20,200 nucleotides of DNA from a virus. Numbering within the stretch: the stretch's first letter is position 1; each line of letters begins with the position of its first letter. The DNA is taken from IMG/VR virus record IMGVR_UViG_3300022927_000163, positions 1 to 20,200 of that record; one strand, given 5' to 3'. The notes beneath the pieces were generated by a model, which searched no databases, was not told the origin of the DNA, and saw only the letters and a program-made list of their open reading frames with translations. The translations under genes and the position numbers were made by a program. Shown piece after piece: positions 1-20,200 of the stretch.

Positions 1-3000
1 CTGCTTTTACATATACATTACCTGCTGCGTTCTCAACGTGAACATCAACATCTTGACTGTCAGTGTTTAGTGTAATAGTTTCACCAGCACTATCAATACT
101 ATCAGTATTAACAGTAATGTTACCAAAAGTGCCTGCATCTGCAAATACACCAGTAGTGTTAACATTACCACTATCAACATTACCACTAAACGTAGCAGCA
201 ACACCGCCTGTGATTGTACCAGCTGTACTAGATAGTGTACCATCAGTTAGTGTACCACCAGTTACAGTACCACTTGCAGTCAATGTAGTTGCATCAACCA
301 ATGTTGTGTTAACATTGCCTGAATCAACATTACCACTAAACGTAGCAGCTACGCCACCTGTTAGTGTACCGGCAGTAATACTTGCAGTGCCATCAGTTAG
401 TGTGCCACCTGTTACAGTGCCACTTGCATCTACAGTAGTTGCATTAACTCTAGTTGTATTAACATTACCCGAATCAACATTACCACTGAATGTAGCGGCT
501 ACGCCACCTGTGATTGTACCAGATGTTGAACTCAATGTGCCATCAGTTAGTGTGCCACCAGTTACAGTACCACTTGCTGTTAGTGTAGTTGCATCAACCA
601 ATGTTGTGTTAACATTACCCGAATCAACGTTACCACTGAATGTAGCAGCAACACCACCTGTGATACTACCAGCATTAATACTTGCTGTACCATCAGTTAA
701 TGTGCCACCTTCGACAGTGCCACTTGCTGTAACAGATACTGTTGTGACGTCTGCTTGTGATACAATATTACCACCAGTTACGTTACCAATGGCTGTTAGT
801 GCTTGTGCTTCAAGTGCACCACCTGTAATCAAGTTACCGGCAGTTACGTTACCACTGAATGTAGCAGCAACACCACCTGTTAGTGTACCGGCAGTAATAC
901 TTGCTGTACCATCAGTTAATGTGCCACCTGTTACAGTGCCACTTGCAGTCAATGTAGTTGCATCAACCAATGTTGTGTTAACATTACCCGAATCAACATT
1001 ACCACTGAATGTAGCAGCAACACCACCTGTGATTGTACCACTAGTCGAACTCAATGTTCCGTCAGTTAATGTGCCACCTGTTACAGTGCCACTTGCATCT
1101 ACAGTAGTTGCATTAACTCTAGTTGTATTAACATTACCACTGTCAACATTACCACTGAATGTAGCAGCTACGCCGCCTGTGATACTACCAGCATTTAGGC
1201 TTGCAGTGCCATCAGTTAGTGTACCACCTGTTACAGTACCACTGAATGTAGCAGCTACGCCGCCAGTTACAGTACCACCAGTTGAACTCAACGTGCCGTC
1301 TGTTAGTGTACCACCTGTTACAGTGCCACTTGCATCTACGGTGGTTGCATTAACTCTAGTTGTGTTAACATTACCACTGTCGACATTACCACTGAATGTA
1401 GCGGCTACGCCACCTGTTAGCGTACCAGCATTAATACTTGCAGTGCCATCAGTTAGTGTAGCACCTTCAACGGTGCCTGTTGCAGTTAGACTTGTACCAG
1501 TAGCAGCACCAATATTTGGTGTTACAAACTGTGCGCCTGCTTTAACAACAACTGCATCAGCAGTGATTGTAGTTGTAGTTTCGTCAACATTTACAGATAG
1601 CTCATTACCCGATTTAGATAGACCGTCGCCTGCTACAATTGAACCAGCACCGGAGAACTGACTCCAGTTAATAGCAGTTGTACCCATAGTAACCGGAGCG
1701 TTTGTTGTACAAACCCAACCACTATCAAGGTATACTGTGCCTTCTTCAACAAAAGTAAACGCACCTGGAATTTCACTAGTAGGTGAACCATCCATGTCTT
1801 CTGCACGAGTTAGAACGTAGGCAGTGCCTGCGTCACCAAGTGTAGTTACAACATAGATACCATTGTTTGCGGCAGTAGATTCGTCTTTAACAAGTAGTCT
1901 ATCGCCTTGTGCCATTACAACATCATCTTGATCAGCCAATGCACCGTTGGCATTACCTGTTAGTGTAGCACCTACACCAGCTGTGCCGTTGTCGTATGTG
2001 TTGGCCGGTAGAGCAGTAGCAGTTGCGGCTCTAGTTGAACCTTTAACGTCAAGACCTTCTGCAACACTGTCAACATAGCCTTTATTGGCTGCGTCACTAT
2101 CTTGTACTGGATCTGCAAGAGAAACAATTTTTGCACTACTCGCATCAATAACGCCTGTGCCACTTGGAACAAGAACAATGTCTTCATTTGTGCCAGTTGC
2201 AGTAAGAGTTACTGAAGTACCTTTAACGTCAGTTGTGTTAACCACACTAGCATTTACGTTGCCAGTTGCGGTTACGTCTAGGCCCTGTACTGTACCAGTA
2301 AATGTAGCATTAGTTCCGCCTGTGATTGCACCTGAGTTGATACTCAATGTGCCATCAGTTAGTGTACCAGCACTTACTTGACCACTGAATGTAGCAGCAA
2401 CGCCACCTGTGATTGTACCACTAGTCGAACTCAATGTTCCGTCAGTTAATGTGCCACCAGTTACAGTACCACTTGCAGTCAATGTAGTTGCATCAACTAG
2501 TGTTGTGTTAACATTGCCTGAATCAACATTACCACTGAATGTAGCGGCTACGCCACCTGTGATACTACCACCAGTTAGTGTAGCAGTGCCATCAGTTAGT
2601 GTACCACCTGTTACAGTGCCACTTGCATCTACAGTAGTTGCATTAACTCTAGTTGTGTTAACATTGCCTGAATCAACATTACCACTGAACGTAGCAGCTA
2701 CGCCGCCTGTGATACTACCAGCATTTAGGCTTGCAGTGCCATCAGTTAGTGTACCGCCTTCAACAGTACCTGATGCTGTTACAGAGACAGTTGTTACGTC
2801 TGCTTGTGATACAATATTACCACCAGTTACATTACCAATGGCTGTTAGTGCTTGTGCTTCGAGTGCACCGCCTGTAATCAAGTTACCAGCAGTTACATTG
2901 CCACTAAACGTAGCAGCTACGCCGCCTGTTAGTGTACCAGCAGTAATACTTGCTGTACCATCAGTTAGTGTACCACCAGTTACAGTGCCACTTGCTGTTA

Positions 3001-4129
3001 GTGTAGTTGCATCAACTAGTGTTGTGTTAACATTACCACTGTTGACATTACCACTAAATGTAGCAGCTACGCCACCTGTTACAGTACCAGCTGTACTAGA
3101 TAGTGTGCCATCAGTTAGTGTGCCACCAGTTACAGTACCACTTGCTGTTAGTGTAGTTGCATCAACTAATGTTGTGTTAACATTACCACTGTCGACATTA
3201 CCACTAAACGTAGCAGCAACACCACCTGTGATACTGCCTGCGTTAAGACTTGCAGTACCATCAGTTAATGTGTCACCTTCGACAGTACCACTTGCAGTCA
3301 CGCTAACGGTTGTAACGTCTGCTTGTGATACAATATTACCACCAGTTACATTACCGGTTGCAGTTAATGCATCTGCTTCAAGTGCACCACTAGTAATCAA
3401 GTTACCAGCAGTTACGTTACCACTGAATGTAGCAGCTACGCCACCTGTAATACTACCTGCGTTAATACTTGCAGTTCCATCAGTTAATGTGTCACCTGTT
3501 ACAGTACCACTTGCTGTTAGTGTAGTTGCATCAACTAGTGTTGTATTAACATTACCCGAATCAACGTTACCACTGAATGTAGCAGAAACACCACTTGTGA
3601 TTGCACCCGAGTTGATACTCATTGTACCGTCTGTTAGTGTTGGCGCCTCAATAGAAGTACCAGCTTCGATTGTAGCATCAACATTTAGTGCTGTTGTTAC
3701 GTTACCACTTGGTGCCATGTTGACCAATGTAAGGTCTGCAACTTGTGCATCAGCATAACTTGATAGCGCGACCACGTTGCCACTTGCATCTGCTGATGTG
3801 AACCCTGCTGCAAATTCACTTTCACTTTCGTCCCAGATCCATGCGATGTTAGTTGAATCCCCACGTTCGCCAACAAAGCCAATGTCAAAAACTGGCGAGC
3901 CAGTTTGATCTTTAGCCAATAGCAAGATTGGATCTTCGATTAGTGTGTTTACAGTATCAAGTGTTGTACTTGTACCTTGTACTGTTAGATTTCCTGTTAC
4001 GGTAAGGTTACTACCGTATACCAGATCATCTGCCAGCTTACCTGCACTAACACTGTTGTCAACTAGTTTAGAACTAGCGACAATAGTACTGTCGGTAATC
4101 TGGTTATTCTTAATTCTGGTTATAGCCAT
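1..4129 (-). CDS. Giant repetitive tail fibre protein (3' end beyond window)
   Basis: One minus-strand frame starting at ATG 4129 reads to position 2 in the segments I translated (both ends, the central domain and most of the first repeats), giving at least 1376 residues; the C-terminus lies outside the window. The N-terminus (MAITRIKNNQITDSTI..., SKLVDNSVSAGKLADD) and a GNLTVTGNLTVQGTSTTLDT block near residues 40-60 are typical of marine T4-like phage fibre proteins. Then come a repeat array (about residues 185-580), a non-repetitive domain with DAANKGYVDS at residues 679-688, a second array (about residues 905-1315) and a different C-terminal stretch. Composition is extremely rich in T, G, A, V, S and N, as in trimeric beta-structured fibre shafts. 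The inferred role is host recognition or a long fibre shaft. A GGAG at 4141-4144 sits 11 bases before the start, and a perfect late-promoter octamer lies about 135 bases upstream. That it is a fibre is well supported; which fibre (side, long or short) is not. Confidence 0.85.
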   Translation of the reverse strand, partial: MAITRIKNNQITDSTIVASSKLVDNSVSAGKLADDLVYGSNLTVTGNLTVQGTSTTLDTVNTLIEDPILLLAKDQTGSPVFDIGFVGERGDSTNIAWIWDESESEFAAGFTSADASGNVVALSSYADAQVADLTLVNMAPSGNVTTALNVDATIEAGTSIEAPTLTDGTMSINSGAITSGVSATFSGNVDSGNVNTTLVDATTLTASGTVTGDTLTDGTASINAGSITGGVAATFSGNVTAGNLITSGALEADALTATGNVTGGNIVSQADVTTVSVTASGTVEGDTLTDGTASLNAGSITGGVAATFSGNVDSGNVNTTLVDATTLTASGTVTGGTLTDGTLSSTAGTVTGGVAATFSGNVNSGNVNTTLVDATTLTASGTVTGGTLTDGTASITAGTLTGGVAATFSGNVTAGNLITGGALEAQALTAIGNVTGGNIVSQADVTTVSVTASGTVEGGTLTDGTASLNAGSITGGVAATFSGNVDSGNVNTTRVNATTVDASGTVTGGTLTDGTATLTGGSITGGVAATFSGNVDSGNVNTTLVDATTLTASGTVTGGTLTDGTLSSTSGTITGGVAATFSGQVSAGTLTDGTLSINSGAITGGTNATFTGTVQGLDVTATGNVNASVVNTTDVKGTSVTLTATGTNEDIVLVPSGTGVIDASSAKIVSLADPVQDSDAANKGYVDSVAEGLDVKGSTRAATATALPANTYDNGTAGVGATLTGNANGALADQDDVVMAQGDRLLVKDESTAANNGIYVVTTLGDAGTAYVLTRAEDMDGSPTSEIPGAFTFVEEGTVYLDSGWVCTTNAPVTMGTTAINWSQFSGAGSIVAGDGLSKSGNELSVNVDETTTTITADAVVVKAGAQFVTPNIGAATGTSLTATGTVEGATLTDGTASINAGTLTGGVAATFSGNVDSGNVNTTRVNATTVDASGTVTGGTLTDGTLSSTGGTVTGGVAATFSGTVTGGTLTDGTASLNAGSITGGVAATFSGNVDSGNVNTTRVNATTVDASGTVTGGTLTDGTLSSTSGTITGGVAATFSGNVDSGNVNTTLVDATTLTASGTVTGGTLTDGTASITAGTLTGGVAATFSGNVTAGNLITGGALEAQALTAIGNVTGGNIVSQADVTTVSVTASGTVEGGTLTDGTASINAGSITGGVAATFSGNVDSGNVNTTLVDATTLTASGTVTGGTLTDGTLSSTSGTITGGVAATFSGNVDSGNVNTTRVNATTVDASGTVTGGTLTDGTASITAGTLTGGVAATFSGNVDSGNVNTTLVDATTLTASGTVTGGTLTDGTLSSTAGTITGGVAATFSGNVDSGNVNTTGVFADAGTFGNITVNTDSIDSAGETITLNTDSQDVDVHVENAAGNVYVKA
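181..1500 (-). repeat. Fibre repeat array 1 (9 units, 150-bp period)
   Basis: The codons for the unit anchor AATFSGN (read on + as taccactgaatgtagc and variants) start near 181, 331, 481, 631, 850, 1000, 1150, 1237 and 1387. Spacing is 150 bases except one 219-base step (631 to 850) and one shortened 87-base step (1150 to 1237). The 150-base unit encodes 50 residues containing SGNVDSGNVNTTLVDATT and then GTLTDGTASINAGSITGG. The unit beginning near 181 diverges after NVNTT and leads into the C-terminal sequence. Units differ mainly at third codon positions, so the repeat is kept at protein level. Confidence 0.93.
1501..2330 (-). other. Non-repetitive DAANKGYVDS domain inside the fibre
   Basis: This in-frame segment of the giant fibre gene separates the two repeat arrays. 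It encodes GTGVIDASSAKIVSLADP, then DAANKGYVDSVAEGLDVKGS at 2095-2036, then a stretch with GDRLLVKDESTAANNGIY and later GSIVAGDGLSKSGNELSV. The DAANKGYVD motif is common in phage tail fibres and structural proteins. The following block, with Trp residues in DSGWVCTTN and NWSQFSGAG, is also fibre-like and is probably a globular knob interrupting the shaft. I read every codon from 1922 to about 2245 in one frame, so the two arrays belong to one protein. Confidence 0.8.
2380..3690 (-). repeat. Fibre repeat array 2 (8 units, 150- and 219-bp units)
   Basis: Unit anchors lie at 2380, 2530, 2680, 2899, 3049, 3199, 3418 and 3568. Spacing is 150 bases except two 219-base steps (2680 to 2899 and 3199 to 3418). 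The longer unit contains 23 extra residues within a segment reading TAGNLITSGALEADALTATG followed by NVTGGNIVSQADVTT. A partial, diverged unit at about 3577-3690 (EAPTLTDGTMSINSGAITSG) opens the array on the N-terminal side. This array is N-terminal to the DAANKGYVDS domain. Confidence 0.93.
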
Positions 4130-9795: not shown

Positions 9796-10461
9796 TTAAA
9801 ATATAATGCCATAAACGATGGCCTTGCTTTTGCTTACTAGTTCGTCGGATGTAGAGCCATCAACAAAATAAACACCAGTTCCACCACTACCTACTGTGTT
9901 TGCATACAAAACTGTGGTGTTTGCTACTGAGGCAGGGGCACTACTCTGATCAGCAAGTTGAATTGCGCCGTCAACAGCAACATTGCCGGTAGCACTAACA
10001 ATTCCTGTAATTGAAAGTGTATCGGTGTCTTGGTCCCAGGTGAATTCTGCCTCACCGCCGAACGTACCTGCATTATTAAACTGGATAGCAGTATTAGGAC
10101 CACCTGGCGAACCAGCCGATGCTGTCCCGATTGCATCCCAAGTGCCAGTTTCTCCACTTGCACTAGTAGCAGTGCTTAATTCCCAGCGGCCGTTATCAAC
10201 ACTGTATCTGATTCCAGCGTAGTCGCTTGCAGTTTTGTGAGTCAATACACCTGCATTGGCAGCATAAGTTGCTGTGTTACTACTGTTTAAAACAATAAAC
10301 GGATCTGATACATTAAGTTCTTCGGTATTAATATACGTTAAGTTGCCGCTAACCACCAAGTTACCGTCAACTTCAAGAGTATCTGTATCAATGTATACTC
10401 TGTCATCAGCATTTATTGTTTCAATATAGTAATCGCCGTCAATTCTTTTTTTTGTGTTCAT
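9796..10461 (-). CDS. Fibre-like structural protein (221 aa)
   Basis: Residues about 28-58 (LEVDGNLVVSGNLTYINTEE, then LNVSDPFIVLNSS) match in pattern the N-terminal part of the giant fibre (GNLTVTGNLTVQGTSTTLDT, then LIEDPILLL), a recurring fibre module in marine phages. A later segment GPNTAIQFNNAGTFGGEAEF followed by TWDQDTDTLSITG is another common phage-fibre motif. The C-terminus is hydrophobic (KSKAIVYGIIF). The start codon overlaps the stop of the upstream enzyme gene by four bases (ATGA), which suggests translational coupling of an enzyme to a fibre protein. Confidence 0.75.
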   Translation of the reverse strand: MNTKKRIDGDYYIETINADDRVYIDTDTLEVDGNLVVSGNLTYINTEELNVSDPFIVLNSSNTATYAANAGVLTHKTASDYAGIRYSVDNGRWELSTATSASGETGTWDAIGTASAGSPGGPNTAIQFNNAGTFGGEAEFTWDQDTDTLSITGIVSATGNVAVDGAIQLADQSSAPASVANTTVLYANTVGSGGTGVYFVDGSTSDELVSKSKAIVYGIIF

Positions 10462-11045
10462 AATGGACCTCTAGCAGTATTTACCTTCTCTAGAAACTTG
10501 TCCATAGACATTATCCTCATATTTTGTATTTTATTAAACCTAGGCACAAATGCTGATTCTGGGCCTTCTATTCTCCAAAATTGTCTGGTGCTAAAGTCTT
10601 CAGTGAGCTTGGTGATTTGATTAATCCAATTACCCGGGTATGTTGGTGGGTCGAGCTCTTTTTTGTAAAATTTTGTATCAACATAGATATTGTTAACCAT
10701 ACCATTGGTAGTTCCAAAATCCATACCAATCAAGTATATGTCACTATGTCCATCAATTAACGCCAAACTGGCAGCATTTGGCCCACTGCTAAATCCTTTG
10801 TAGTCTTTAGCAAGAAACTGTCCTCCTAAATCCAGAATAGGTTTTCGGGTGTGGAATCTATGTTTTTTTGCATATCCAGAATTTTGTATTTCTTCAGCGA
10901 TCGGCCTGTCAGTGGCTACCAAGCAATGAGGTGTGCACTCTTGATACAATCGATTGCATCCAAATACTGTACCGATTTCCATCAATCTTTTGGGATTAAC
11001 TGCTAGTCTACTTCTGCCATTTCCTAATATAAATGCTGCACTCAT
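10458..11045 (-). CDS. Rossmann-type enzyme resembling GT42/DUF115 transferases (195 aa)
   Basis: Not a structural-looking protein. Motifs in order: AFILGNGRSR at residues 4-13 (nucleotide-binding type glycine turn), VFGCNRLY at 27-34, CLVATDRP at 41-48, SSGPNAASLALIDGHSDIYL at 86-105 and IGMDFG at 106-111. This order (GNGxS, then CNxxY, then SGxxA...A...G...IYLxGxDF) is the one I know from GT42 sialyltransferases such as CstII and from DUF115/MptE-like proteins. Those transfer sugars, often using CMP-activated donors; I infer family resemblance, not substrate. At 195 residues it is shorter than typical GT42 enzymes. It follows an intrinsic terminator directly, with no Shine-Dalgarno apart from the G-run of the hairpin, and its stop overlaps a fibre gene start (ATGA). 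A role in modifying virion or host glycans is possible. Confidence 0.6.
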   Translation of the reverse strand: MSAAFILGNGRSRLAVNPKRLMEIGTVFGCNRLYQECTPHCLVATDRPIAEEIQNSGYAKKHRFHTRKPILDLGGQFLAKDYKGFSSGPNAASLALIDGHSDIYLIGMDFGTTNGMVNNIYVDTKFYKKELDPPTYPGNWINQITKLTEDFSTRQFWRIEGPESAFVPRFNKIQNMRIMSMDKFLEKVNTARGPL

Positions 11046-11914: not shown

Positions 11915-13126
11915 TTATGAGAACGAAAGGTTCTGTACAGCAATTTCACCAACATAGTCACCGGCGTTGCCGAAGGACGATGCTGTGTTTGTTAGCTCAA
12001 TATAGCCATAACGTGTCATAAAGGACACTACTGGCTCAAAGCTGGACGGATCAAGAACAACGCCCGAACTCATTAGCGGTACGTATGGGCAATAGAACGC
12101 TGGTGCGTCTGTTTCACTTGCGCCTTTGTAGCCAACTAGTACTGGAGTTGTGTCGCCTGCATATGAGTCGCAGAATACACGCATTGTGCCATTCAATGTA
12201 CCGACAAATTTAGTATTTGTTGGTGCTTCAAATGTGCCTTCTGTTGTGCGAGCAAATGCACTTGTTGTTGCACTCTGTAGCACTGTAAGTGCAGCAGGGG
12301 AAACAACAGCATAGTTGCCTGCGCCACGGCGTGTACGCTGAGCGATCAAGTTAGCTGTACGGTTGATTAGAACTGCAAGAGCTGCATGCTCGTCACCAAC
12401 AAATGTTGCTGTACCTGATACTGTGGCTTGGTTGTATGTAAACTCAGTTGCTGCTAGTGAACGTAGAGAAAGTAGGATCTCTTGGTCGATTTCAGCAGTA
12501 ATTTCTTGAGCAAGTGCTGCCATGATTTCAGCTTCAACGTCAATGCCGTGCATGGCTTGTGCGTCTTGTGCTGCTTCAAATGTCCAGCGAGCTTGTAGCT
12601 TACGTGTTTTTGCTTCAACAGCTTGCTTGAGGATTTGTACGGAAATCTGACGACCACCGGAGCCTTCAAGTACTGCTGTGTTTGCACCTTGGTATGTGTT
12701 CTGTGCAGCTTGTACAACGCCTGCTGTCACTGTGGACGCAGAGGAGTAAGCTTGTGCAATTTTGAATGGACTTAGTGCTTCGTCACCAGCGGCTGTACTT
12801 GTTGCTGCTGCCGAGTTGTCTGTCATTGCATTTGCATAACGAACACGTAGTGTGTGAATTTGGCCAACTGGACCAGTCATTGGCTGAACGCCGACTAGTT
12901 CGTTAGCAATAACAGTTGGCATAACACGTCTGATAACTGGTAGGATAACACGGTTAAGTGTTGCTACGTTACCAGAAGAAGTTGAACCTGCTGTTGCATT
13001 CTCTGCCAAGTGCTTACGAGTGTTTTCTAGGATAACACCCATTGTTGAACGGCGTGAACCTTGAAGGCCTTCTAGGAGGGCTTCCTTGGTCTCACTCCAT
13101 CTGTTTTCTAGTAGTTCTTGTGACAT
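11915..13126 (-). CDS. 23: Major capsid protein (gp23-like)
   Basis: Major head protein of T4-like phages, HK97 fold, assembled on the gp22 core and processed by gp21. The N-terminus (ENRWSETKEALLEGLQGSRR, then MGVILENTRKHLAE) is the removable propeptide type. LAE at residues 40-42 fits the gp21 cleavage rule (hydrophobic-x-Glu), which would give a mature protein from Asn43. Downstream segments NRVILPVIRRVMPTVIANEL, VGVQPMTGPVGQIHTLRVRY, VEAKTRKLQARWTFEAAQDA and AEIDQEILLSLR are classical gp23 signatures. At 403 aa it is clearly shorter than T4 gp23 (521 aa). The position after gp22 and the terminator just downstream agree. Start chosen by AAGGAG seven bases before ATG 13126. Confidence 0.96.
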   Translation of the reverse strand: MSQELLENRWSETKEALLEGLQGSRRSTMGVILENTRKHLAENATAGSTSSGNVATLNRVILPVIRRVMPTVIANELVGVQPMTGPVGQIHTLRVRYANAMTDNSAAATSTAAGDEALSPFKIAQAYSSASTVTAGVVQAAQNTYQGANTAVLEGSGGRQISVQILKQAVEAKTRKLQARWTFEAAQDAQAMHGIDVEAEIMAALAQEITAEIDQEILLSLRSLAATEFTYNQATVSGTATFVGDEHAALAVLINRTANLIAQRTRRGAGNYAVVSPAALTVLQSATTSAFARTTEGTFEAPTNTKFVGTLNGTMRVFCDSYAGDTTPVLVGYKGASETDAPAFYCPYVPLMSSGVVLDPSSFEPVVSFMTRYGYIELTNTASSFGNAGDYVGEIAVQNLSFS

Positions 13127-13146
13127 TTCTGTCTCCTTTTTCTTTT

Positions 13147-14238
13147 TTAAAGCCCTGCTAGGCGCTTAAGATCGATAACGTTATTAACGTTGTTTGTTTC
13201 GGATCTTTGTTGTTCGGCCTTAACAGTTTTGTTACCAGTAGATTCAACAAGTGCTTCAGCTTTTTTAGTTGCTTTAGCTTCACTGAGTACTGCTGGCAAG
13301 TACTTCTCAAATGCGTTCTTTAGACGAGATGTTTGAACGTTTTCAAGAAGATTAATCATTACTTCTCTCTTTTCATCGTTAAGAGGCGAAAGTAGTTCGT
13401 CTAATGTAGCTTCTCGCTCATTAGCTTCACGAATGATTTTAATTTCATGATTTTTACTCTCAACAAGCTTTGCGGCTTGTTTTTGAGCGTTAACGGCTTC
13501 TGCCAACTTAATGTCTTTATCTTCAATAGTAGCTAATAGTTTGCGTACTTCTGCATTCTCATTGAGATGAGTAGCACCAAACTCTGTAGCATATGCTTCA
13601 AATATACGGCGACCAAAATTGTTCTCACGAGCAATTTTGATATCCTCTTTAAGTTGACTTAATTCTTGCGTAAGATGAGTAGCAACAGTTGTTGACATCT
13701 TTTTAGCAGATTCTTTTACAAATTTACTTTTTAGACTATCAAGTTGTCCACGTGCTTCGCTGACAAGCTTTACTTTAGTTTCAACTAAGTCTTTCTTGTC
13801 TGCTGCGAATTCCTTGATTTCTTCGGCCAAAGCACTTACAATAAAAGATTCTAGCTTACCAAAACCTTCTGCTTGTACTTTACGGTCTGTGCGTAGTTCG
13901 CGAAGCTCTTCTGAAAGTTTTGATACCATAAAGTTATTAAATTTATTAGCATTTTCTTTCATTGCTTTTGCGGCTTTTACACGGTCCTCTGCAAGTGCCT
14001 TTTTCTCTTCGTTAAGTTGAGCAATTTCTTCTTGCAGGCCTTCTGTTACCATTTTATCTAGGGCTTCTACCATCACTGTTTTATCATGATCATAGCGTTG
14101 TGCAAACTCCTCACGAAGTTCTGCACGAACTGTTTCTTTGGTCTCATTCAACTTTGCTGCCCATTGTTCAGCAATAGCATTACGAGTATCCTCATTAACC
14201 AGGTCGCTATCTAGTAGTGGTTTAATAGCATCTAACAT
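13147..14238 (-). CDS. 22: Prohead core scaffolding protein (gp22-like)
   Basis: Major internal scaffold of the prohead, degraded by gp21 after assembly. The protein is dominated by charged, Ala- and Leu-rich helical sequence predicted to form long coiled coils (about residues 20-280: EQWAAKLNETKETVRAELRE, LREEFAQRYDHDKT, QLNEEKKALAEDRVKAAKAM). DHDKTVMVEALDKMVTEGLQ is a gp22-type segment, and the region near residue 285-310 (LDELLSPLNDEKREVMINLL) recurs in gp22 homologues. It is longer than T4 gp22 (269 aa). It lies between gp21 and gp23 with gaps of 9 and 20 bases, and AGGAG precedes the start. Confidence 0.92.
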   Translation of the reverse strand: MLDAIKPLLDSDLVNEDTRNAIAEQWAAKLNETKETVRAELREEFAQRYDHDKTVMVEALDKMVTEGLQEEIAQLNEEKKALAEDRVKAAKAMKENANKFNNFMVSKLSEELRELRTDRKVQAEGFGKLESFIVSALAEEIKEFAADKKDLVETKVKLVSEARGQLDSLKSKFVKESAKKMSTTVATHLTQELSQLKEDIKIARENNFGRRIFEAYATEFGATHLNENAEVRKLLATIEDKDIKLAEAVNAQKQAAKLVESKNHEIKIIREANEREATLDELLSPLNDEKREVMINLLENVQTSRLKNAFEKYLPAVLSEAKATKKAEALVESTGNKTVKAEQQRSETNNVNNVIDLKRLAGL

Positions 14239-14247
14239 GCGATTCTC

Positions 14248-14874
14248 CTAAATCTTTAGGTCCCTAATCAGACGAGATACTTCGTCTGTTAGGTACTTCT
14301 GTACTCTGTCGTTTGACCCTGACTCCCTGGCCATTTCGAGAACTGCATGACCATGTTTCATGTTCAAAAGTCCTTCGTAAATAGCTTTAGGGTAAGCATT
14401 TGGAGCACTGGGTTGTGCGACTACATCGACAGTAACAATTTCAAAGTCACTGACGTGTCCGTTATGTGGATCTACATTACCCGATCCACGACTAGATACT
14501 CCCAGTCGCACACCTGACTGAAGCATAGTTTTAACTAGCTCGCCCATTGGTGTTGGAAGTATTTTTAGTTTTCCGTATCCATTTGGACCGTCCATCCACA
14601 TACTAGTAATCATGTGACATACACGGTCTAAATTAATCTTAAGGTCATCCGGGTGATCAACTTCACCAAGGACGCTATTGCCTTCTTTGATCTGTTCATT
14701 AAGAGTTTTAACTGCGTTAGAAATCTCACTCACAGGGTATATTCGCTCATTAGCGTTCTTAACACCACCTTGTATGCAGATGCCTTCCATAAAGAGTTCC
14801 TTACCGTCTTTCCCTTCAACGAGTTGAATTTGTGCGGTTTCGAAGGTAAGGTTTTCTCTAAGATAAAGAGCCAT
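14248..14874 (-). CDS. 21: Prohead core protease (gp21-like, peptidase family S80/U9)
   Basis: Serine protease that cleaves scaffold and capsid proteins during head maturation and then itself. The length, 208 aa, is close to T4 gp21 (212 aa). Catalytic candidates lie in family positions: His74 in GEVDHPDD, Ser127/Ser128 in GVRLGVSSRGSG, and Asp150 in VTVDVVAQPSAP. The segment GVKNANERIYPVSEI (about residues 37-51) is also a protease signature. It lies between the acidic core-type gene and gp22 as in the T4 order. AAGGAT is positioned about 11 bases before ATG. Confidence 0.95.
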   Translation of the reverse strand: MALYLRENLTFETAQIQLVEGKDGKELFMEGICIQGGVKNANERIYPVSEISNAVKTLNEQIKEGNSVLGEVDHPDDLKINLDRVCHMITSMWMDGPNGYGKLKILPTPMGELVKTMLQSGVRLGVSSRGSGNVDPHNGHVSDFEIVTVDVVAQPSAPNAYPKAIYEGLLNMKHGHAVLEMARESGSNDRVQKYLTDEVSRLIRDLKI

Positions 14875-14888
14875 ACTTGGTTATCCTT

Positions 14889-15683
14889 TTAGTCAATAAC
14901 GCTTTTGGTGTTCACACCAGACGCTTGTGCTAGTTGCGGTTTTGGCGCAGCTTTCATGTCTGGTCTTGTTGTGTTACCTTGGTCTTGTGCTTTTGGAGCA
15001 GGGCGACCTTTTTCTGGAGCAGTGTCTGTGTCAACTGGTTTTGCTACAGCACCTTTTGCGCCACTGTTGGCAGCCACAGTACTATGTGTTTGAGTACCAG
15101 CTGGTTCAGTAGTAACAGCTTTAGGAGCAGCAGTTAGGTCAACATTTTCTTCTAGACCTTCCATTTCCATGTCAACTTCGACTGTTTCGTCGTCCATGTC
15201 CATTTCTTCGTGGTCATCTTCAACATCATCAATGTCGTCAGTGTTGTCGTCGACTTGACCCATGAGTTCTTCAAACTCGGACATAAGTTCGTCTAGTTTG
15301 TCTTCTAGACCAACAACACGATCTTCGAGTTCTTCATCGTCGTCATCATCTTCAACGTCGACCATCATCATTTCTTCATCATCATCTTCAAAAGTGACGC
15401 CTTGTTCTTCGGCTTCAATTTCGTCGATAAGATCGTCAACTTGTGATCCACCAAGTTCTGACTCTTCAATGGATTCGTCCATTTTGTCATCATACTCGAT
15501 GTCTTTTTTAACTTCATCACCAGCTTTTTCAGCATGGTCATCTTTTTCTGCGTCTGATTCTTCAGACATGATGTCTTCATAGATTGTTTTAGATTGCTCT
15601 ACAACGATCTCATGAAAGAGAGCTTTTGCTTTATCTTCTTCGTCGTTAATAACGAATTCGATAAGTTGTTCAAATTTGTTCAT
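14889..15683 (-). CDS. Highly acidic prohead-core-type protein (264 aa)
   Basis: Occupies the place of the small core genes 67/68 of T4, directly before gp21. A short N-terminal helix region (MNKFEQLIEFVINDEEDKAK) is followed by a central tract very rich in Asp and Glu, including a run DVEDDDDDEELEDRV, and then a low-complexity tail rich in Pro, Ala, Lys and Thr. I set the start at ATG 15683 because GGAGGAA lies about 5 bases upstream. The ATG at 15725 would add 14 residues that contain this ribosome binding site and has none of its own. T4 gp67 is also acidic but only 80 aa, so this is functional analogy by position and charge; sequence homology is not certain. It could bind the basic capsid interior or gp22. 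Confidence 0.75.
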   Translation of the reverse strand: MNKFEQLIEFVINDEEDKAKALFHEIVVEQSKTIYEDIMSEESDAEKDDHAEKAGDEVKKDIEYDDKMDESIEESELGGSQVDDLIDEIEAEEQGVTFEDDDEEMMMVDVEDDDDDEELEDRVVGLEDKLDELMSEFEELMGQVDDNTDDIDDVEDDHEEMDMDDETVEVDMEMEGLEENVDLTAAPKAVTTEPAGTQTHSTVAANSGAKGAVAKPVDTDTAPEKGRPAPKAQDQGNTTRPDMKAAPKPQLAQASGVNTKSVID

Positions 15684-15688
15684 ATTGG

Positions 15689-15695
15689 TTCCTCC
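15689..15695 (-). promoter_or_regulatory. Ribosome binding site deciding the acidic protein start
   Basis: GGAGGAA on the minus strand is a near-perfect Shine-Dalgarno sequence, 5 bases from ATG 15683. It selects this start over the in-frame ATG at 15725, which it would otherwise fall inside. Confidence 0.8.
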
Positions 15696-15777
15696 AAAGT
15701 ATGGGCTCAGTATAATATTTAACATAGATACTAAAAACTATGCAGTTATAGGAGTAAAATGGGTAGAAAACGATAAA

Positions 15778-15808
15778 TTTATTAGACTAAAAGAAAAATT
15801 CTAATAAA
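15778..15808 (-). other. AT-rich hairpin downstream of the 71-aa gene
   Basis: TTTATTAGA and TCTAATAAA form a perfect 9-base stem with a 13-base loop, located 4 bases after the stop of the small gene. The stem is almost all A-T and the following T-run is interrupted (TTTATCGTTTTC), so it is at best a weak terminator or an mRNA end or processing structure between two head genes. The rest of the 128-base gap holds nothing I can name. Confidence 0.35.
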
Positions 15809-15811
15809 GTA

Positions 15812-16027
15812 TCACATTTGTGGCGGCGCTGGTGCATATTGTGCTTGCACTTTTTTCAGCTCTTCTTTTTTTTCATAATTTCGCATGTCATACATTTTGC
15901 GCAATTTTGAAATTTGTTTAAGAGTTAGTTTAGTTTTGCGCAGTTCGCCGAGTTGCGGTGTAGAATTGTCATCCTCTACATCTTGGTACCCTTCTGGTGC
16001 TGCTTCAAAAAATTCAAATAGTTTCAT
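15812..16027 (-). CDS. Small basic conserved protein between gp20 and gp21 (71 aa)
   Basis: MKLFEFFEAAPEGYQDVEDD is followed by GELRKTKLTLKQISKLRKMY and DMRNYEKKEELKKVQAQY, then a Pro-rich end. The LRKT-LTL-QI-KLR-M pattern is one I associate with a small conserved protein between portal and protease in marine T4-like phages. The second half is positively charged and helical, complementary in charge to the acidic protein made next. It starts 8 bases after the radical SAM gene. It is a likely prohead core component in the gp67/gp68 position; the homologue in T4 is uncertain. Confidence 0.7.
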   Translation of the reverse strand: MKLFEFFEAAPEGYQDVEDDNSTPQLGELRKTKLTLKQISKLRKMYDMRNYEKKEELKKVQAQYAPAPPQM

Positions 16028-16035
16028 AATAATAT

Positions 16036-17058
16036 TTATCCAAAATCTATATTCGGAAGGTCAATACGACCAGCGCCTAGAACTGCCCCTTTTGAGCAGT
16101 TTCCTATACAAGTATTGTGACAGGTTTTTATACTATCAAAACTATTTTTAAGTTTAAATTTATAAAAACCTGACTGTGCAATATCACTTATACTGTGCAT
16201 ATTCAAATTTATATCGTCGAGATTGCCAATTATTTTTCTAAAAAGCCTGTCAGACATTGTGTTTTTCCAAGTTGTGCCAGACGTCATGCAGCACGGCAAT
16301 ACATACCCTTCGTGATTTATGTACATATCTCCATGTTGATTCCAGGAGCATTGAGGACTTGTAAACGTGTCGGTACTATTTGCTATGTTATGTGACTTGG
16401 TAACAAATTTTATACCGTCGGCCATTTCTAAATCATACTGAAACTCTCCGTCGATATACACAGGCCAAATATTGGTTCCAAAGAAATTTCTATTAGAGTA
16501 TTGAACTTGAAAGTCTATAAATCCAAGATCTTTTGCTAATTGCCTAGCTTCTTCGATTTGATGTTGATTGTGTTTGAAAACTATGTATTTCCAAGTTGCA
16601 TTTCCTCCGGCTGAGATAAAACTTTTTGCATTTTCGATGGTTTTTTCCCAGTTAGCATTTATTCTATAAATGTGATTTGTATCCTCTAATCCATCTAGTG
16701 CAAATACAACATGCACATTCTTATAGGCTGCTATCTCTGAAAACCACTTTTTATTACGGATACTTCCATTGGTATTAATGTCGACCCTGTCGATGTCTTT
16801 AAAAAAGTCAATAAAATTTCCAATTTCAGGATTCATTACTGGATCGCCATAATCGCCTTCAAACTTCATATATTTTAAGTTAGGCAAATACTTTAAATCG
16901 AAATTTTTTGAAAAATTATCAAAACTTAAATGCCCTGGAGTAAGATTTTTATCCAAAAACCCATTTTCGTCAAATCTAGGACATTGTGGACAATGCAAGT
17001 TGCAAAAACTAGATGACTCGATCGTTAGTTGTTTAATTTTATTTAAATCTAAGAACAT
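16036..17058 (-). CDS. Radical SAM enzyme with SPASM-like C-terminus (340 aa)
   Basis: Residues 18-27 read FCNLHCPQCP, the CxxxCxxC cluster motif (Cys19, Cys23, Cys26) that binds the 4Fe-4S cluster and S-adenosylmethionine in radical SAM enzymes. KFEGDYGDPVMNPEI (65-79) corresponds to the GGEPLL-like SAM-binding strand, and VDINTNGS (92-99) to the following beta strand. The C-terminal part has further Cys residues: Cys237, Cys256-Cys257 in GYVLPCCMTSG, and Cys313, Cys317, Cys321 in CHNTCIGNC. These are arranged like an auxiliary-cluster SPASM/twitch domain. SPASM enzymes usually modify peptides or proteins. The gene overlaps the 148-aa gene by 10 bases and sits among head genes, which suggests a virion-protein or late-stage substrate. 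The substrate itself cannot be read from sequence. Confidence 0.88.
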   Translation of the reverse strand: MFLDLNKIKQLTIESSSFCNLHCPQCPRFDENGFLDKNLTPGHLSFDNFSKNFDLKYLPNLKYMKFEGDYGDPVMNPEIGNFIDFFKDIDRVDINTNGSIRNKKWFSEIAAYKNVHVVFALDGLEDTNHIYRINANWEKTIENAKSFISAGGNATWKYIVFKHNQHQIEEARQLAKDLGFIDFQVQYSNRNFFGTNIWPVYIDGEFQYDLEMADGIKFVTKSHNIANSTDTFTSPQCSWNQHGDMYINHEGYVLPCCMTSGTTWKNTMSDRLFRKIIGNLDDINLNMHSISDIAQSGFYKFKLKNSFDSIKTCHNTCIGNCSKGAVLGAGRIDLPNIDFG

Positions 17059-17495
17059 TTGCTATTAAACCAGTGCCACATAGGCGTATAAAAATCTATA
17101 CGCACTTCGCCGTTAAGTCCAATAAAACCGTAAAACTCGTCAGTTAAGGTTGGACCATTTTGATTGTTGTTACTACCCACGTGATAGTAACAGGGATTTC
17201 CGTTAACGTATAAATCAGTTACATCAATTTCATCGAGTACAATTTTCTGCACAATTGCATGAACATTGTAAACAATGTTGCCTTGTTCGTCAACAATTGT
17301 GTGTTCTTCAGTTTTCCCCCGCATTACTACCCGAATACATTGGTCAGCGTGTTCGTCAGTATCTTCATATTCAATGGTATATTGTGTTACACCTTCATTA
17401 AATGAATTACTTGCAACAAGTTTATTGTTTTGATATACATCAATGAAGATACTTGTAACAGTTTCACTGCACTCAATGTCTAGTGTTGATAACAT
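17049..17495 (-). CDS. Beta-rich protein of unknown function next to radical SAM gene (148 aa)
   Basis: No signal peptide or membrane segment. The sequence alternates short beta strands (SIFIDVYQNNKLVASNSF, YTIEYEDTD, CIRVVMRGK, IVQKIVLDEIDVTDLYVNGN). It ends with an aromatic tail FYGFIGLNGEVRIDFYTPMW followed by HWFNSKCS. The FYGxxGxNGxxxxxFxxPxxxW pattern resembles a beta-sandwich, carbohydrate-binding-like protein I associate with marine phages and bacteria, but I cannot name the family with confidence. It begins 3 bases after the portal stop, and its last codons overlap the radical SAM start, so the two are probably co-produced. It may be the partner or substrate of that enzyme; this is inference from adjacency. 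Confidence 0.65.
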   Translation of the reverse strand: MLSTLDIECSETVTSIFIDVYQNNKLVASNSFNEGVTQYTIEYEDTDEHADQCIRVVMRGKTEEHTIVDEQGNIVYNVHAIVQKIVLDEIDVTDLYVNGNPCYYHVGSNNNQNGPTLTDEFYGFIGLNGEVRIDFYTPMWHWFNSKCS

Positions 17496-17498
17496 TCG

Positions 17499-19220
17499 TT
17501 ATACTAAAGGCGTTTCTGCTGCAACTGCACCAGGATCGATGTCCACATCAATTTCCTCACCGCCTGCTTCGATGTCACCGCCGGTTTCAATATCTGCATC
17601 AAAATCAGCAGGACTAACACCGACTGTGCGTAAATCTTTGCCCATTGGATCAAGTTCACTTGGTTGCCCAGTTTCTTCACTCCACAATTTCGAGTTTTCT
17701 TGCAACTCGTCGTCAGTGAGACCCAGGTAACGTTTCATAAGAAAACGCTTGCTCATGTAGGGAATTTGCTCTAATGTGCTAAACGCTTGCATACGAGTTG
17801 TATCAAGTTCAGCTTGACGATAACTAGCAAAATTCTGTGGCGGTGCAAACTTGATGCTAAACAACCCGCTGTCAATGTTAAAGCCTCTCCAGCGCAAAAA
17901 CATTTTAAATTCATCATCAAGTTTTTGACAAATTTGCTTTTGCAGTCTTTCGCAATACTGATTAAATCTATATTCTTGTATAAGTGCAGTACCAACACGA
18001 CCGTCGTTCATTGGTCGATCACTGTCGTCTGGGCCAGTCGGAAGGTAGCTGCTAGGAACACGAAGTCCTCTGCACATCTTGTTGTTAAAGTATTTTAAAT
18101 CGTCGATTTGTCCAAGGTTTTCGCCGCCTGGTAGTGTTTCAACTTTTGATCCTCTACCTTCTGCTGTTTGTGGAAAGAAGTAATCTTCGTTGATTGACAA
18201 TGGATTGTATGTAGTATCCATTGTAGTACCAGCTTGCCCGCCTTGTTGATTGGGAATACGTCTTTGGTGCACTTCATTTTTAACACGTTCAACAAACTGC
18301 ATAGCAAGGTGACTTGGCATGTTGCCTACATCAATATAAAATACTCTACGTTCTGGCGCACGTTGCACACGATAAATTAGAATCGAGTCTTCAAGTAACT
18401 CTTTTTGCTTGAATACTTTGAAAATCATTTCAAGTATACTTTGACTAAACGGCCAATAAAAATCCAAGCCTTCACTAAGTCCAAGGTGTACTATGTTTTT
18501 AGCATCAATTACTGTTTCGTTTATAGTGTGTTCAAATCTACTTTGCCCACCTGCAAGAGGTGCATTTGGGATAGTGTAGTTTGAATTTGATCCGCCGCTG
18601 CCGCCAATTGACCCTGCATTAGGATTTGATCCATAGTCTGTGGTGCTTTTAGGAGCAATGCTTAAATTTTGAAAGTTGGGATTGATATCACGAATAACGT
18701 ATTGTTCAGGTTTCTTGCCTTCGTTTTCATTGACAATAACTCTTACTACTTTGGTCATGTCAACCCAGTATAGTTCAAAGGTTTCTGGATCTCTAACAAA
18801 AACTTGATCGCCGTACTTCAACGTGTTACGGAAAAGACGGAATATACGTTGATCAAACTTGTTGAGTTTAGTCCACTGTTGTAGTTGTTTTCTAATAATC
18901 TCAATTTCGTTGTTTGTAGGAGTATCAGTGTATTCAACTTCAAACGGTGTGTTGTTGCTTTCATTGGTTTGTGTTGCAAACTCAGCAATGATATCTAAAC
19001 ATGCATTGATTTCACTGTCGCAATCCATATTTTCATACTGATTGTAGCGTTCAATTCTGTTAGGGTGACCTGAATACACTTCAGGCAAGTGACTTTGGTA
19101 ATTCTTAAAACCAAATTGGCCGCCTTGACCATTTGATCCTTGAGTAGACCGTCCGCTAATAGGCGAAAGTTGCCCACCTTCGTTGCCTACCACTTTAAAG
19201 TATTTTTTCCATCCGGCCAT
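17499..19220 (-). CDS. 20: Portal vertex protein (gp20-like)
   Basis: Dodecameric portal at the head vertex: initiates head assembly, DNA packaging channel and tail connector. The length, 573 aa, is near T4 gp20 (524 aa). Recognised segments include ERYNQYENMDCDSEINACLD (about residues 57-76), LYWVDMTKVVRVI, KNIVHLGLSEGLDFYWPFSQ, DSILIYRVQRAPERRVFYID and VGNMPSHLAMQFVERVKNEV. Also present are FFPQTAEGRGSKVETLPGGE and MNDGRVGTALIQEYRFN; these are conserved in T4-type portals. The C-terminal end is low-complexity and acidic (DADIETGGDIEAGGEEIDVD). It opens the head block; the start ATG 19220 has only a weak GGAA upstream. Confidence 0.97.
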   Translation of the reverse strand: MAGWKKYFKVVGNEGGQLSPISGRSTQGSNGQGGQFGFKNYQSHLPEVYSGHPNRIERYNQYENMDCDSEINACLDIIAEFATQTNESNNTPFEVEYTDTPTNNEIEIIRKQLQQWTKLNKFDQRIFRLFRNTLKYGDQVFVRDPETFELYWVDMTKVVRVIVNENEGKKPEQYVIRDINPNFQNLSIAPKSTTDYGSNPNAGSIGGSGGSNSNYTIPNAPLAGGQSRFEHTINETVIDAKNIVHLGLSEGLDFYWPFSQSILEMIFKVFKQKELLEDSILIYRVQRAPERRVFYIDVGNMPSHLAMQFVERVKNEVHQRRIPNQQGGQAGTTMDTTYNPLSINEDYFFPQTAEGRGSKVETLPGGENLGQIDDLKYFNNKMCRGLRVPSSYLPTGPDDSDRPMNDGRVGTALIQEYRFNQYCERLQKQICQKLDDEFKMFLRWRGFNIDSGLFSIKFAPPQNFASYRQAELDTTRMQAFSTLEQIPYMSKRFLMKRYLGLTDDELQENSKLWSEETGQPSELDPMGKDLRTVGVSPADFDADIETGGDIEAGGEEIDVDIDPGAVAAETPLV

Positions 19221-19255
19221 GTATTATTTTTCCAATATGCACATTGTGACACAAG

Positions 19256-19263
19256 TATTTATC
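19256..19263 (-). promoter_or_regulatory. Possible T4-type late promoter (GATAAATA) before portal
   Basis: The minus strand reads GATAAATA, seven of eight bases of the late octamer. It overlaps the stop codon of the upstream tail gene and lies about 36 bases before the portal ATG. The spacing would give a leader of about 30 bases. The single mismatch at the first position leaves this less certain than the two perfect copies. Confidence 0.5.
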
Positions 19264-20200
19264 ACCCTTGCCTGGCCCGCTGTAGTATCTGCTCACTAGT
19301 ACGATTAGCACGATCCATTGCAGTTACAATTTCAGTTAACTTTTCAATGGTTAGATCTGACACTTCTTTTCTTGCTAAAGTGTCTGCTTTAGAATTTGCC
19401 AACTGACTGTTTGCTACTGTGAGATTTTCATTTAATACATCTGATAGACTTCCACTGGTTCTTAACGTGCCACTAGGGCCTGCTGTTGAAGATGTAGCAT
19501 CTGATGTTCCTGGCGGAGCATATTTTCTTCTACTTTCCTCAAATAGTTTTAATAAATCACCATTGCTTCCATAATCTGGTGTTGCACCTGATGGCAAAGT
19601 ACCTGCACCCCCAGTTGTTGTTCCGTTATTTCCAGATGCATTATCAATAAATCTTCCAAATCCAAACATCTTTTTGATGTTTTCCCAGGTTTCTGCGTTT
19701 TGTTTCCTTGAGTTATCAAGTCGTTCTTGAATTTGCTGTTGTGCAGCGGCTTTTTCATCAGGGGACATATTTGTGAAATCTACAATTCCAGTCCCAATAT
19801 CTGGCATTATTTGTTCAGAAACTGCTGACTTTAATCCGGCTAGTCCACCAGTGCTAAATGCTTCGAGCATTAAAAACATTTCTTCGTTTGTTCTTTGCAC
19901 AATTCTTGCAAATTGTTCAATCGCTGCGGCAGCTGGGCCCATAAGCTCTTTAGCCATTTTGTCAGCTTCAATTGCTGCCCGTTGTAAAGCGACTTGTGCA
20001 GAAATTAGATCGGCAGTTGTGGTGTCTGTTGCTGTTGTTAAACTATCTTGCGATGTTTTTAATGCGTCTAAGTCGTCTGCTGTTAAATTAGCACGTTGGG
20101 CCACATTAAACATGCCTTCAAAAACTGCATCCATTGGTGTACCAAGGCCGACCAATCTAGCAATTCCTGCTGATCCTCCTAGAGAATCAAATCTATTGTT
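19262..20200 (-). CDS. C-terminal part of a tape-measure-like tail protein (5' end outside window)
   Basis: The frame is open to the right edge (upstream residues NNRFDSLGGSAGIARLVGLG read through), so at least 312 C-terminal residues are present and the gene begins outside. The sequence is helical and Ala/Gln/Glu-rich with coiled-coil potential (DDLDALKTSQDSLTTATDTT, ALQRAAIEADKMAKELMGPA, AIEQFARIVQRTNEEMFLML). A Gly/Thr/Ser-rich flexible segment follows, then a last helix ending EIVTAMDRANRTSEQILQRA. The terminal helix with R-T-x-x-I-L resembles the ends of phage tape-measure proteins. It is a tail or core protein; tape measure is the best guess, not proven. In T4 the gene before gp20 is gp19 (tail tube), so this order differs. 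Confidence 0.55.
   Translation of the reverse strand, partial: NNRFDSLGGSAGIARLVGLGTPMDAVFEGMFNVAQRANLTADDLDALKTSQDSLTTATDTTTADLISAQVALQRAAIEADKMAKELMGPAAAAIEQFARIVQRTNEEMFLMLEAFSTGGLAGLKSAVSEQIMPDIGTGIVDFTNMSPDEKAAAQQQIQERLDNSRKQNAETWENIKKMFGFGRFIDNASGNNGTTTGGAGTLPSGATPDYGSNGDLLKLFEESRRKYAPPGTSDATSSTAGPSGTLRTSGSLSDVLNENLTVANSQLANSKADTLARKEVSDLTIEKLTEIVTAMDRANRTSEQILQRARQG

Follow-up and report, generated by a model that had tools for sequence, protein, structure and literature searches.

The cassette and its place among the head genes

What is a radical SAM enzyme doing among the head genes of a T4-type phage, and what does the small protein encoded just in front of it contribute? The DNA analyzed, called the window below, is a virus record of 20,200 bases (IMG/VR IMGVR_UViG_3300022927_000163) with its head module on the minus strand. 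An earlier note on it had placed a radical SAM enzyme and a 148-amino-acid protein between portal gp20 and the prohead core genes, with a 10-base overlap of the two genes; the open reading frames and the overlap are as it described them. The features concerned are as follows.

17499..19220, minus strand: portal protein (gp20), left neighbour of the insertion site (Portal_T4, E 3e-107)
17049..17495, minus strand: 148-aa protein predicted to be a CBM60-like beta-sandwich, from the first gene of the cassette (open reading frame)
16036..17058, minus strand: 340-aa radical SAM enzyme whose C-terminal cluster site is of the SPASM/twitch type, from the second gene of the cassette (Pfam)
17049..17058, minus strand: overlap of the two reading frames, 10 bases (open reading frame coordinates)
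16033..16040, minus strand: GATAAATA, a late-promoter-like element (NATAAATA) that overlaps the enzyme stop codon and starts 13 bases before the next gene
15812..16027, minus strand: small gene of 71 aa at the position of gp67, bordering the insertion site on the right (PHROG 13986)
14889..15725, minus strand: acidic prohead-core-like protein (from gene order; family matches weak)
14248..14874, minus strand: prohead protease, gp21 (Peptidase_S77)
11915..13126, minus strand: major capsid protein, gp23 (Gp23)

The 148-aa gene lies 3 bases from the end of the portal gene, and the enzyme gene is followed in order by the 71-aa gene, the acidic core-like gene, the prohead protease, a gene in the gp22 position and Gp23. 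The nearest portal proteins are those of jumbo phages, namely Sinorhizobium phage Phosso (55.3% identity), Atu_ph07 (52.7%) and PA5oct (about 49%), in which the small prohead gene directly follows the portal gene. Relatives of both cassette genes at the head site show 56-100% protein identity, with pairwise dN/dS of 0.09-0.28 for the 148-aa gene and 0.09-0.21 for the enzyme, synonymous changes being near saturation in the wider pairs; this degree of conservation, together with the low ratios, marks both as real genes rather than chance frames, and the comparison indicates that both are under purifying selection. Their overlapping frames suggest linked translation.

Distribution of the pair

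The close family comprises 15 records in IMG/VR, the window included, which were found in scans with either protein or with alignments. Two of these, L049 and L146, stop short of the small gene. Of the other 13, which are informative, 12 have the small gene directly before the enzyme, while L144 has the enzyme alone; the independent cases are fewer than 13, since the window does not differ from G001 in either protein and L147 and L148 share the same enzyme. The overlap amounts to 10 bases in the head-site members read, to a single base in L149 and to a few in L147; the start codons of the L147 enzyme, the L033 carbamoyltransferase and the L246 small gene are uncertain, and with them the lengths of the overlaps concerned. 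In L235 the 5' end of the small gene is cut by the contig. The solitary enzyme of L144 begins 5 bases past the portal and keeps its Cys motifs, and the 36-kb L144 record, itself a fragment, gave no small-family match. Searching with nothing but small-protein sequences gave 11 loci; 10 of them were known beforehand and had helped to shape the search patterns, one (L235) was new, and the enzyme adjoins in all 11. From these counts we consider that the small gene and the enzyme belong together, with exceptions, as had been supposed from the window alone.

The enzyme is in the head slot in 12 of the 15 close-family records (the right-hand neighbour being used where the contig is cut). In L147 and L148 the pair is adjacent with no head gene recognised around it, and the 72-kb L148 record has no portal match. 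In L149, a record of 352,754 bases, the pair lies at about 62 kb and the portal at about 221.6-223.4 kb, and the head junction there is empty, the small prohead gene following 8 bases behind the portal. The pair is seen, then, in three genomic settings, and because it stays adjacent outside the head module the link is one of gene to gene, and position does not define its function.

Among cultured phages there was no DNA-level match for positions 12000-20200 of the window and, at the limits used, no match to the 148-aa protein or four of its relatives; four records carry distant homologues of the enzyme. A scan of genome contigs with the single sequence, directed at a cellular origin, gave no enzyme relative.

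The portal junction as a slot

The junction itself was surveyed in 80 portal loci (at least 80 exist, and near-duplicates are possible), counting the small prohead gene as directly after the portal when its start and the end of the portal match are at most 135 bases apart; the core-gene model used in this survey was built from one sequence and carries none of the conclusions. A gene of the 71-aa type directly follows the portal in 77 of the 80 loci listed. The other three listed are L059, which holds the pair (in the 299,910-base G003), L124, which is cut off, and L128, where a TauD-family dioxygenase gene (PF02668, 96.1 bits) sits between portal and small gene. With the dioxygenase in the same place as the cassette, the junction looks like a cargo slot.

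Two further genes were seen by eye in this region. An opposite-strand gene in the L128 junction, which together with the dioxygenase gene takes up L128 1921-3563, resembles a His-rich membrane desaturase and has no Pfam match. In another portal relative, a 240-aa gene that resembles an HNH endonuclease (L086 7060-7782) lies between the small gene and the core gene, an extra insertion in the same head region.

Five filled loci that are not among the 80 (L003, L047, L048, L143 and L144) were added by hand for the portal tree and the promoter count. In the portal tree seven filled tips (the window, L003, L059, L047, L048, L143 and, with the enzyme alone, L144) and four empty ones (L060-L063) form one clade with support 1.0, and the empty L063 is sister to the filled L143 (0.998). 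In the enzyme tree L143, L144 and L235 stand apart from all other members (0.995); the portal tree instead groups L143 with L047, L048, L062 and L063 (0.836) and L144 with L060 and L061 (0.902), a disagreement that suggests loss and exchange of the cassette. Its position is facultative and movable.

The passages on the T4-like cyanophage S-PM2 in PMC2984593 give NATAAATA as its reported late promoter. ATAAATA is found within 20 bases of the small prohead gene in 78 of 85 loci (the 80 listed and the 5 added), as against 0.27 expected. It lies on the portal stop codon in the empty junctions read and on the enzyme stop codon in the window, L003, L047, L048, L059 and L004; it is absent from the filled L143 and L144 and from the empty L103, L106, L113, L134 and L136. 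No such element was seen by eye just before the 148-aa gene in the junctions inspected. Since the cassette sits between the portal and the late-promoter-like element, it is probably read from the portal side, and its late expression, co-transcribed with the head genes, is plausible from the sequence.

These observations bear on what the earlier note had read from the position of the genes, namely that the enzyme modifies a virion protein. A late radical modification of capsid, portal or core protein would fit the prevalence of the head slot in the close family and the probable reading from the portal side. Against it stand the four relatives in the same portal clade, L060-L063, which lack the pair and have the same order of head genes after the portal as far as their contigs reach, the occurrence of the pair elsewhere in L147/L148 and L149, and the use of the same junction by an oxygenase gene in L128. 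With the slot facultative and the pair not fixed there, the virion-modification reading is unsupported, and we regard modification of a head protein as very improbable.

The radical SAM enzyme

The CxxxCxxC motif that had been recognized in the enzyme is C19-x3-C23-x2-C26, and these cysteines are invariant in 45 aligned rows, which were chosen by hand (10 from the close family and L051 taken together, and 35 of the 49 distinct open reading frames of L150-L218). Both Pfam Radical_SAM (35.6 bits, cut-off 29.5) and Pfam SPASM (25.7 bits, cut-off 21.5, residues 237-317) exceed their cut-offs. The canonical SPASM pattern has seven cysteines, Cx9-15Gx4C - Cx2Cx5Cx3C - C; in the phage enzyme C237-x13-G251-x4-C256 fits, but the remainder reads C313-x3-C317-x3-C321. 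Since only the first part of that pattern fits, the enzyme is better named SPASM/twitch-type, with a reduced site. Among 10 aligned close members, C19, C23, C26, C256, C257, C317 and C321 are kept in all, C237 in nine and C313 in eight, the last being absent in L147 and L149.

The model of the enzyme, built on the alignment of those 45 rows (mean pLDDT 85.6), has the radical SAM core fold, with Z scores up to 17.7 against solved enzymes. Nearest are SuiB and SkfB (17.7 each), BlsE (17.3) and DesII (17.0), tied within 1 Z, and then come anSME (16.4), MoaA (16.2) and viperin (15.1). When solved chains are searched by profile, SkfB ranks highest (E 1.1e-7), followed by tetraether lipid synthase and viperins; searching solved structures with the single sequence gave only chance-level rows, for the enzyme as for the 148-aa protein. 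As modelled, the fold cannot tell the substrate, for peptide and sugar enzymes match equally.

Comparison with the peptide enzymes brings out differences. A RiPP maturase system combines an N-terminal peptide-recognition domain with a short precursor peptide. In the cassette that domain is absent, there being no room for it since the Radical_SAM match starts at residue 14 and the core strand at residue 10, and the partner is a folded protein of 148 amino acids. SuiB and SkfB are SPASM peptide maturases and the closest folds, SkfB being also the best by sequence profile, but matches to them start near their residue 100, the region before it being missing from the phage enzyme, and their partner is a short precursor. 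BlsE and DesII, which act on sugars and nucleosides, are tied with them in fold, but the phage enzyme belongs to no curated family, and we know of no small partner protein in the BlsE and DesII families. No curated NCBIfam family is over its cut-off, with MoaA and NirJ far below; N_Twi_rSAM (NF033640) reaches 47.7 bits against 170, its match starting only at model position 109. A tungsten-cofactor maturase (TIGR04317), the best NCBIfam row, was rejected as a candidate at 61.9 bits against a cut-off of 380.

The 148-aa protein

The beta-rich character of the small protein, which had been noticed from its translation, is confirmed in an AlphaFold2 model from an 8-row alignment: a beta-sandwich with nine strands of at least 3 residues (mean pLDDT 75.7, pTM 0.73), in which residues 99-121 are unreliable and form an unmodelled loop. 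The best solved fold is vCBM60 2xfd (VIA Z 10.5, 106 residues, 3.1 A), a second vCBM60 structure, 2xhh, has Z 9.6, and the next unrelated row among the families listed by the structural aligner has Z 6.2; Foldseek gives E 1.0e-3 against vCBM60. The protein thus has a predicted fold like that of vCBM60, a carbohydrate-binding module that depends on calcium, with 106-111 of its residues aligned to the two structures, but identity is 12-13%, there is no sequence-profile match, and it differs from vCBM60 in being encoded by a stand-alone gene paired with a radical SAM gene. Pfam rows for 8 family members at E up to 10 include no CBM, the HMMER filters dropping most weak rows; in PHROG and Pfam the protein and its relatives have weak matches throughout (best E 0.014), and a sequence search of solved chains gave none that is significant (best E 0.1 and 1.3). 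When the model was compared with predicted viral structures, three phage proteins of 144-158 amino acids, all uncharacterised, matched at E < 1e-3.

The earlier note had singled out the aromatic C-terminus with its Cys as a possible substrate feature. Aromatic residues and Cys are there in the window, but the stretch is predicted to be a helix (139-147), and Cys147, next to the end of the protein, is there because the overlapping ATG of the enzyme dictates its codon, AAA TGT TCT in the small-protein frame lying against ATG TTC T in that of the enzyme. In L147 and L149 the tail reads IWLLENC or IWLLENMA; it is not conserved, and the case for it as a substrate is weak. The WxWFNSKC tail, which we take to resemble the aromatic motifs of cyclophane peptides, was dropped as a crosslinking substrate on these grounds. 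Invariant in 10 diverse rows are K61, T66, I74, V75, D88, P115, G126 and W142, which are few and scattered.

The wider small-protein family

Three distant members of the small family were found by small-protein profiles, without use of the enzyme. One, of 197 amino acids, lies in G003 between a radical SAM gene with a B12-binding domain over cut-off and a carbamoyltransferase gene; the second, of 169 amino acids, also in G003 at about 28 kb (L242 765-1989), overlaps an Asp_Arg_Hydrox gene (24.5 bits vs. 22.6); the third, of 150 amino acids, in G009, adjoins a gene for a 478-aa radical SAM protein whose B12-binding match reaches only E 0.042. The neighbour is thus a radical SAM gene in two of the three and an oxygenase-like gene in the other. 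A further group, L183, L186 and L202, has a member of 195-200 amino acids between radical SAM genes (the same protein in L183 and L186), but they came from the enzyme search and are biased by it. Among the 69 loci with an enzyme identity of at most 35%, the small family is present in the fetched flanks of only these three, and because there are so few of them the pairing looks typical of the small family rather than of radical SAM genes generally. The earlier note had held that homologues of the enzyme at other positions without the 148-aa gene would count against its idea; such cases are seen for distant homologues (at most 35% identity), not for close ones.

The genomes concerned are rich in radical SAM genes. 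Matches with E no higher than 0.001, some of which fall below the Pfam cut-off, number 8 in G001, 8 in G003, 16 in G009 (11 of them above the cut-off) and 7 in G010. At 62-72 kb of G001 (L031 2000-12100) there is an array of seven radical SAM genes, six of which pass the N_Twi_rSAM cut-off, with a PNP_UDP_1 phosphorylase gene, whose product might clear 5'-deoxyadenosine, and a gene of a heptose-phosphate adenylyltransferase PHROG. Glycosyltransferase-like genes were recognized by eye near the arrays, and two of them have no family match. A small beta-looking protein, again seen by eye, lies just upstream of a radical SAM gene at L036 4126-5757 (about 62-64 kb of G003); it was missed by the CBM60-like profile and by the family libraries.

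Comparison with radical-SAM-rich phages

Phages rich in such genes are already known. For the T4-related Campylobacter phages CP220 and CPt10, Timms et al. (2010, PMC2853527) give 11 and 12 radical SAM genes; five lie together with a putative amidinotransferase gene in a cluster that is interchangeable. The window enzyme has a distant homologue among the radical SAM proteins of CP220, but its identity is far lower (22.9%) and it is not at a portal junction; no small-family member was detected in the 20.9-kb stretch of CP220 scanned (L055). Radical SAM cassettes are described in pelagimyophages (PMC7029224), and 12 radical SAM genes in the T4-like ocean genome TARA_ERS488813_N000010 (PMC5332604). 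In these last two the likeness is that radical SAM genes form a variable cargo of T4-like phages, here marine ones; the passages mention neither a small beta-sandwich partner nor a portal-junction cassette. The open-licence literature searched, judged by titles and the openings of abstracts, yielded no description of a pair of radical SAM and CBM-like proteins in phages. What is new is the conserved, movable pairing and the CBM60-like fold.

The passages on radical-SAM-rich phages discuss them in terms of auxiliary metabolism (PMC2853527, PMC5332604), and by analogy the enzyme might be metabolic cargo acting on a small molecule (nucleotide, cofactor or nucleotide sugar), the small protein being incidental or regulatory. 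The MoaA and viperin folds near that of the enzyme would agree with this. We think it distinctly unlikely, however, in view of the adjacent partner that persists across genomic settings, which points to a joint function, and of curated MoaA and NirJ families that fall far below their cut-offs.

Possible function of the pair

The joint target of the two proteins is probably not the head itself but something that bears sugars or resembles a lectin. The reading that we put forward, tentatively and at somewhat less than an even chance, is that of a facultative cassette in which a carbohydrate-binding-like partner and a radical SAM enzyme tailor a glycan or glycoconjugate late in infection. We infer that the CBM60-like protein would hold a carbohydrate or glycoconjugate, probably a host envelope or phage surface glycan, from which the enzyme would abstract a hydrogen by way of a 5'-deoxyadenosyl radical, so that the sugar would be altered late in infection. 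We favour this reading because of the pairing in 12 of 13 records across three settings, the predicted vCBM60 fold and the sugar-enzyme folds (BlsE, DesII) near that of the enzyme; the distant members that adjoin radical SAM, carbamoyltransferase and Asp_Arg_Hydrox genes, the G001 array and the purifying selection on both genes count in its favour too. The reading is weakened by the small protein's having no significant sequence match to any CBM or solved structure, by SuiB, SkfB and anSME, which match the enzyme as well as the sugar enzymes do, and by the solitary enzyme of L144 and the small family's presence at only 3 of the 69 distant loci.

Sulfatases matured by anSME offer a model for another relation between the two proteins, in which the enzyme would mature the 148-aa lectin-like protein itself, which would then serve as a virion or secreted carbohydrate binder. 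The gene overlap, the near-constant co-occurrence, the place of anSME and the peptide maturases among the close folds with SkfB as the best solved chain by profile, and the distant small-family members lying next to chemically different possible protein modifiers, the Asp_Arg_Hydrox gene included, would all fit such a dedicated maturation. It is harder to reconcile with L144, a fragment of 36 kb that keeps the enzyme and its Cys motifs without the small gene, and with a small protein whose few invariant residues are spread out with no obvious modified motif and whose C-terminal tail is not conserved; we consider it unlikely, though a strong rival.

Extended from the glycan-tailoring cassette to the whole small family, the argument would lead to a general phage device of two parts, a small CBM60-like protein and an oxidative tailoring enzyme of its own (SPASM radical SAM, B12-type radical SAM or Asp/Asn hydroxylase), which would alter glycans, or the phage's own lectins, during infection, with the head-module pair of the window as one exchangeable member; taken as a whole, this is rather doubtful.

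The passages on radical-SAM-rich T4-type phages give no tested substrate (PMC2853527, PMC5332604, PMC7029224), and a conserved small partner with a predicted carbohydrate-binding fold would provide a handle on the target of one class of these enzymes, in a two-gene cassette small enough for direct assay. If the proposed tailoring is correct, the head operon contains a slot from which cargo can be delivered at a late stage of infection.

Other genes of the window

Among the structural genes at 10458-11045 (minus strand) is one for a 195-aa protein with weak MptE-like and sialyltransferase matches and a strong match to PHROG 30607, a family of unknown function. A highly repetitive, fibre-like open reading frame of 1376 amino acids occupies positions 2-4129 (minus strand) and runs off the window edge, and the long plus-strand open reading frames at 63-1661 and 2409-3758 are antisense to it.
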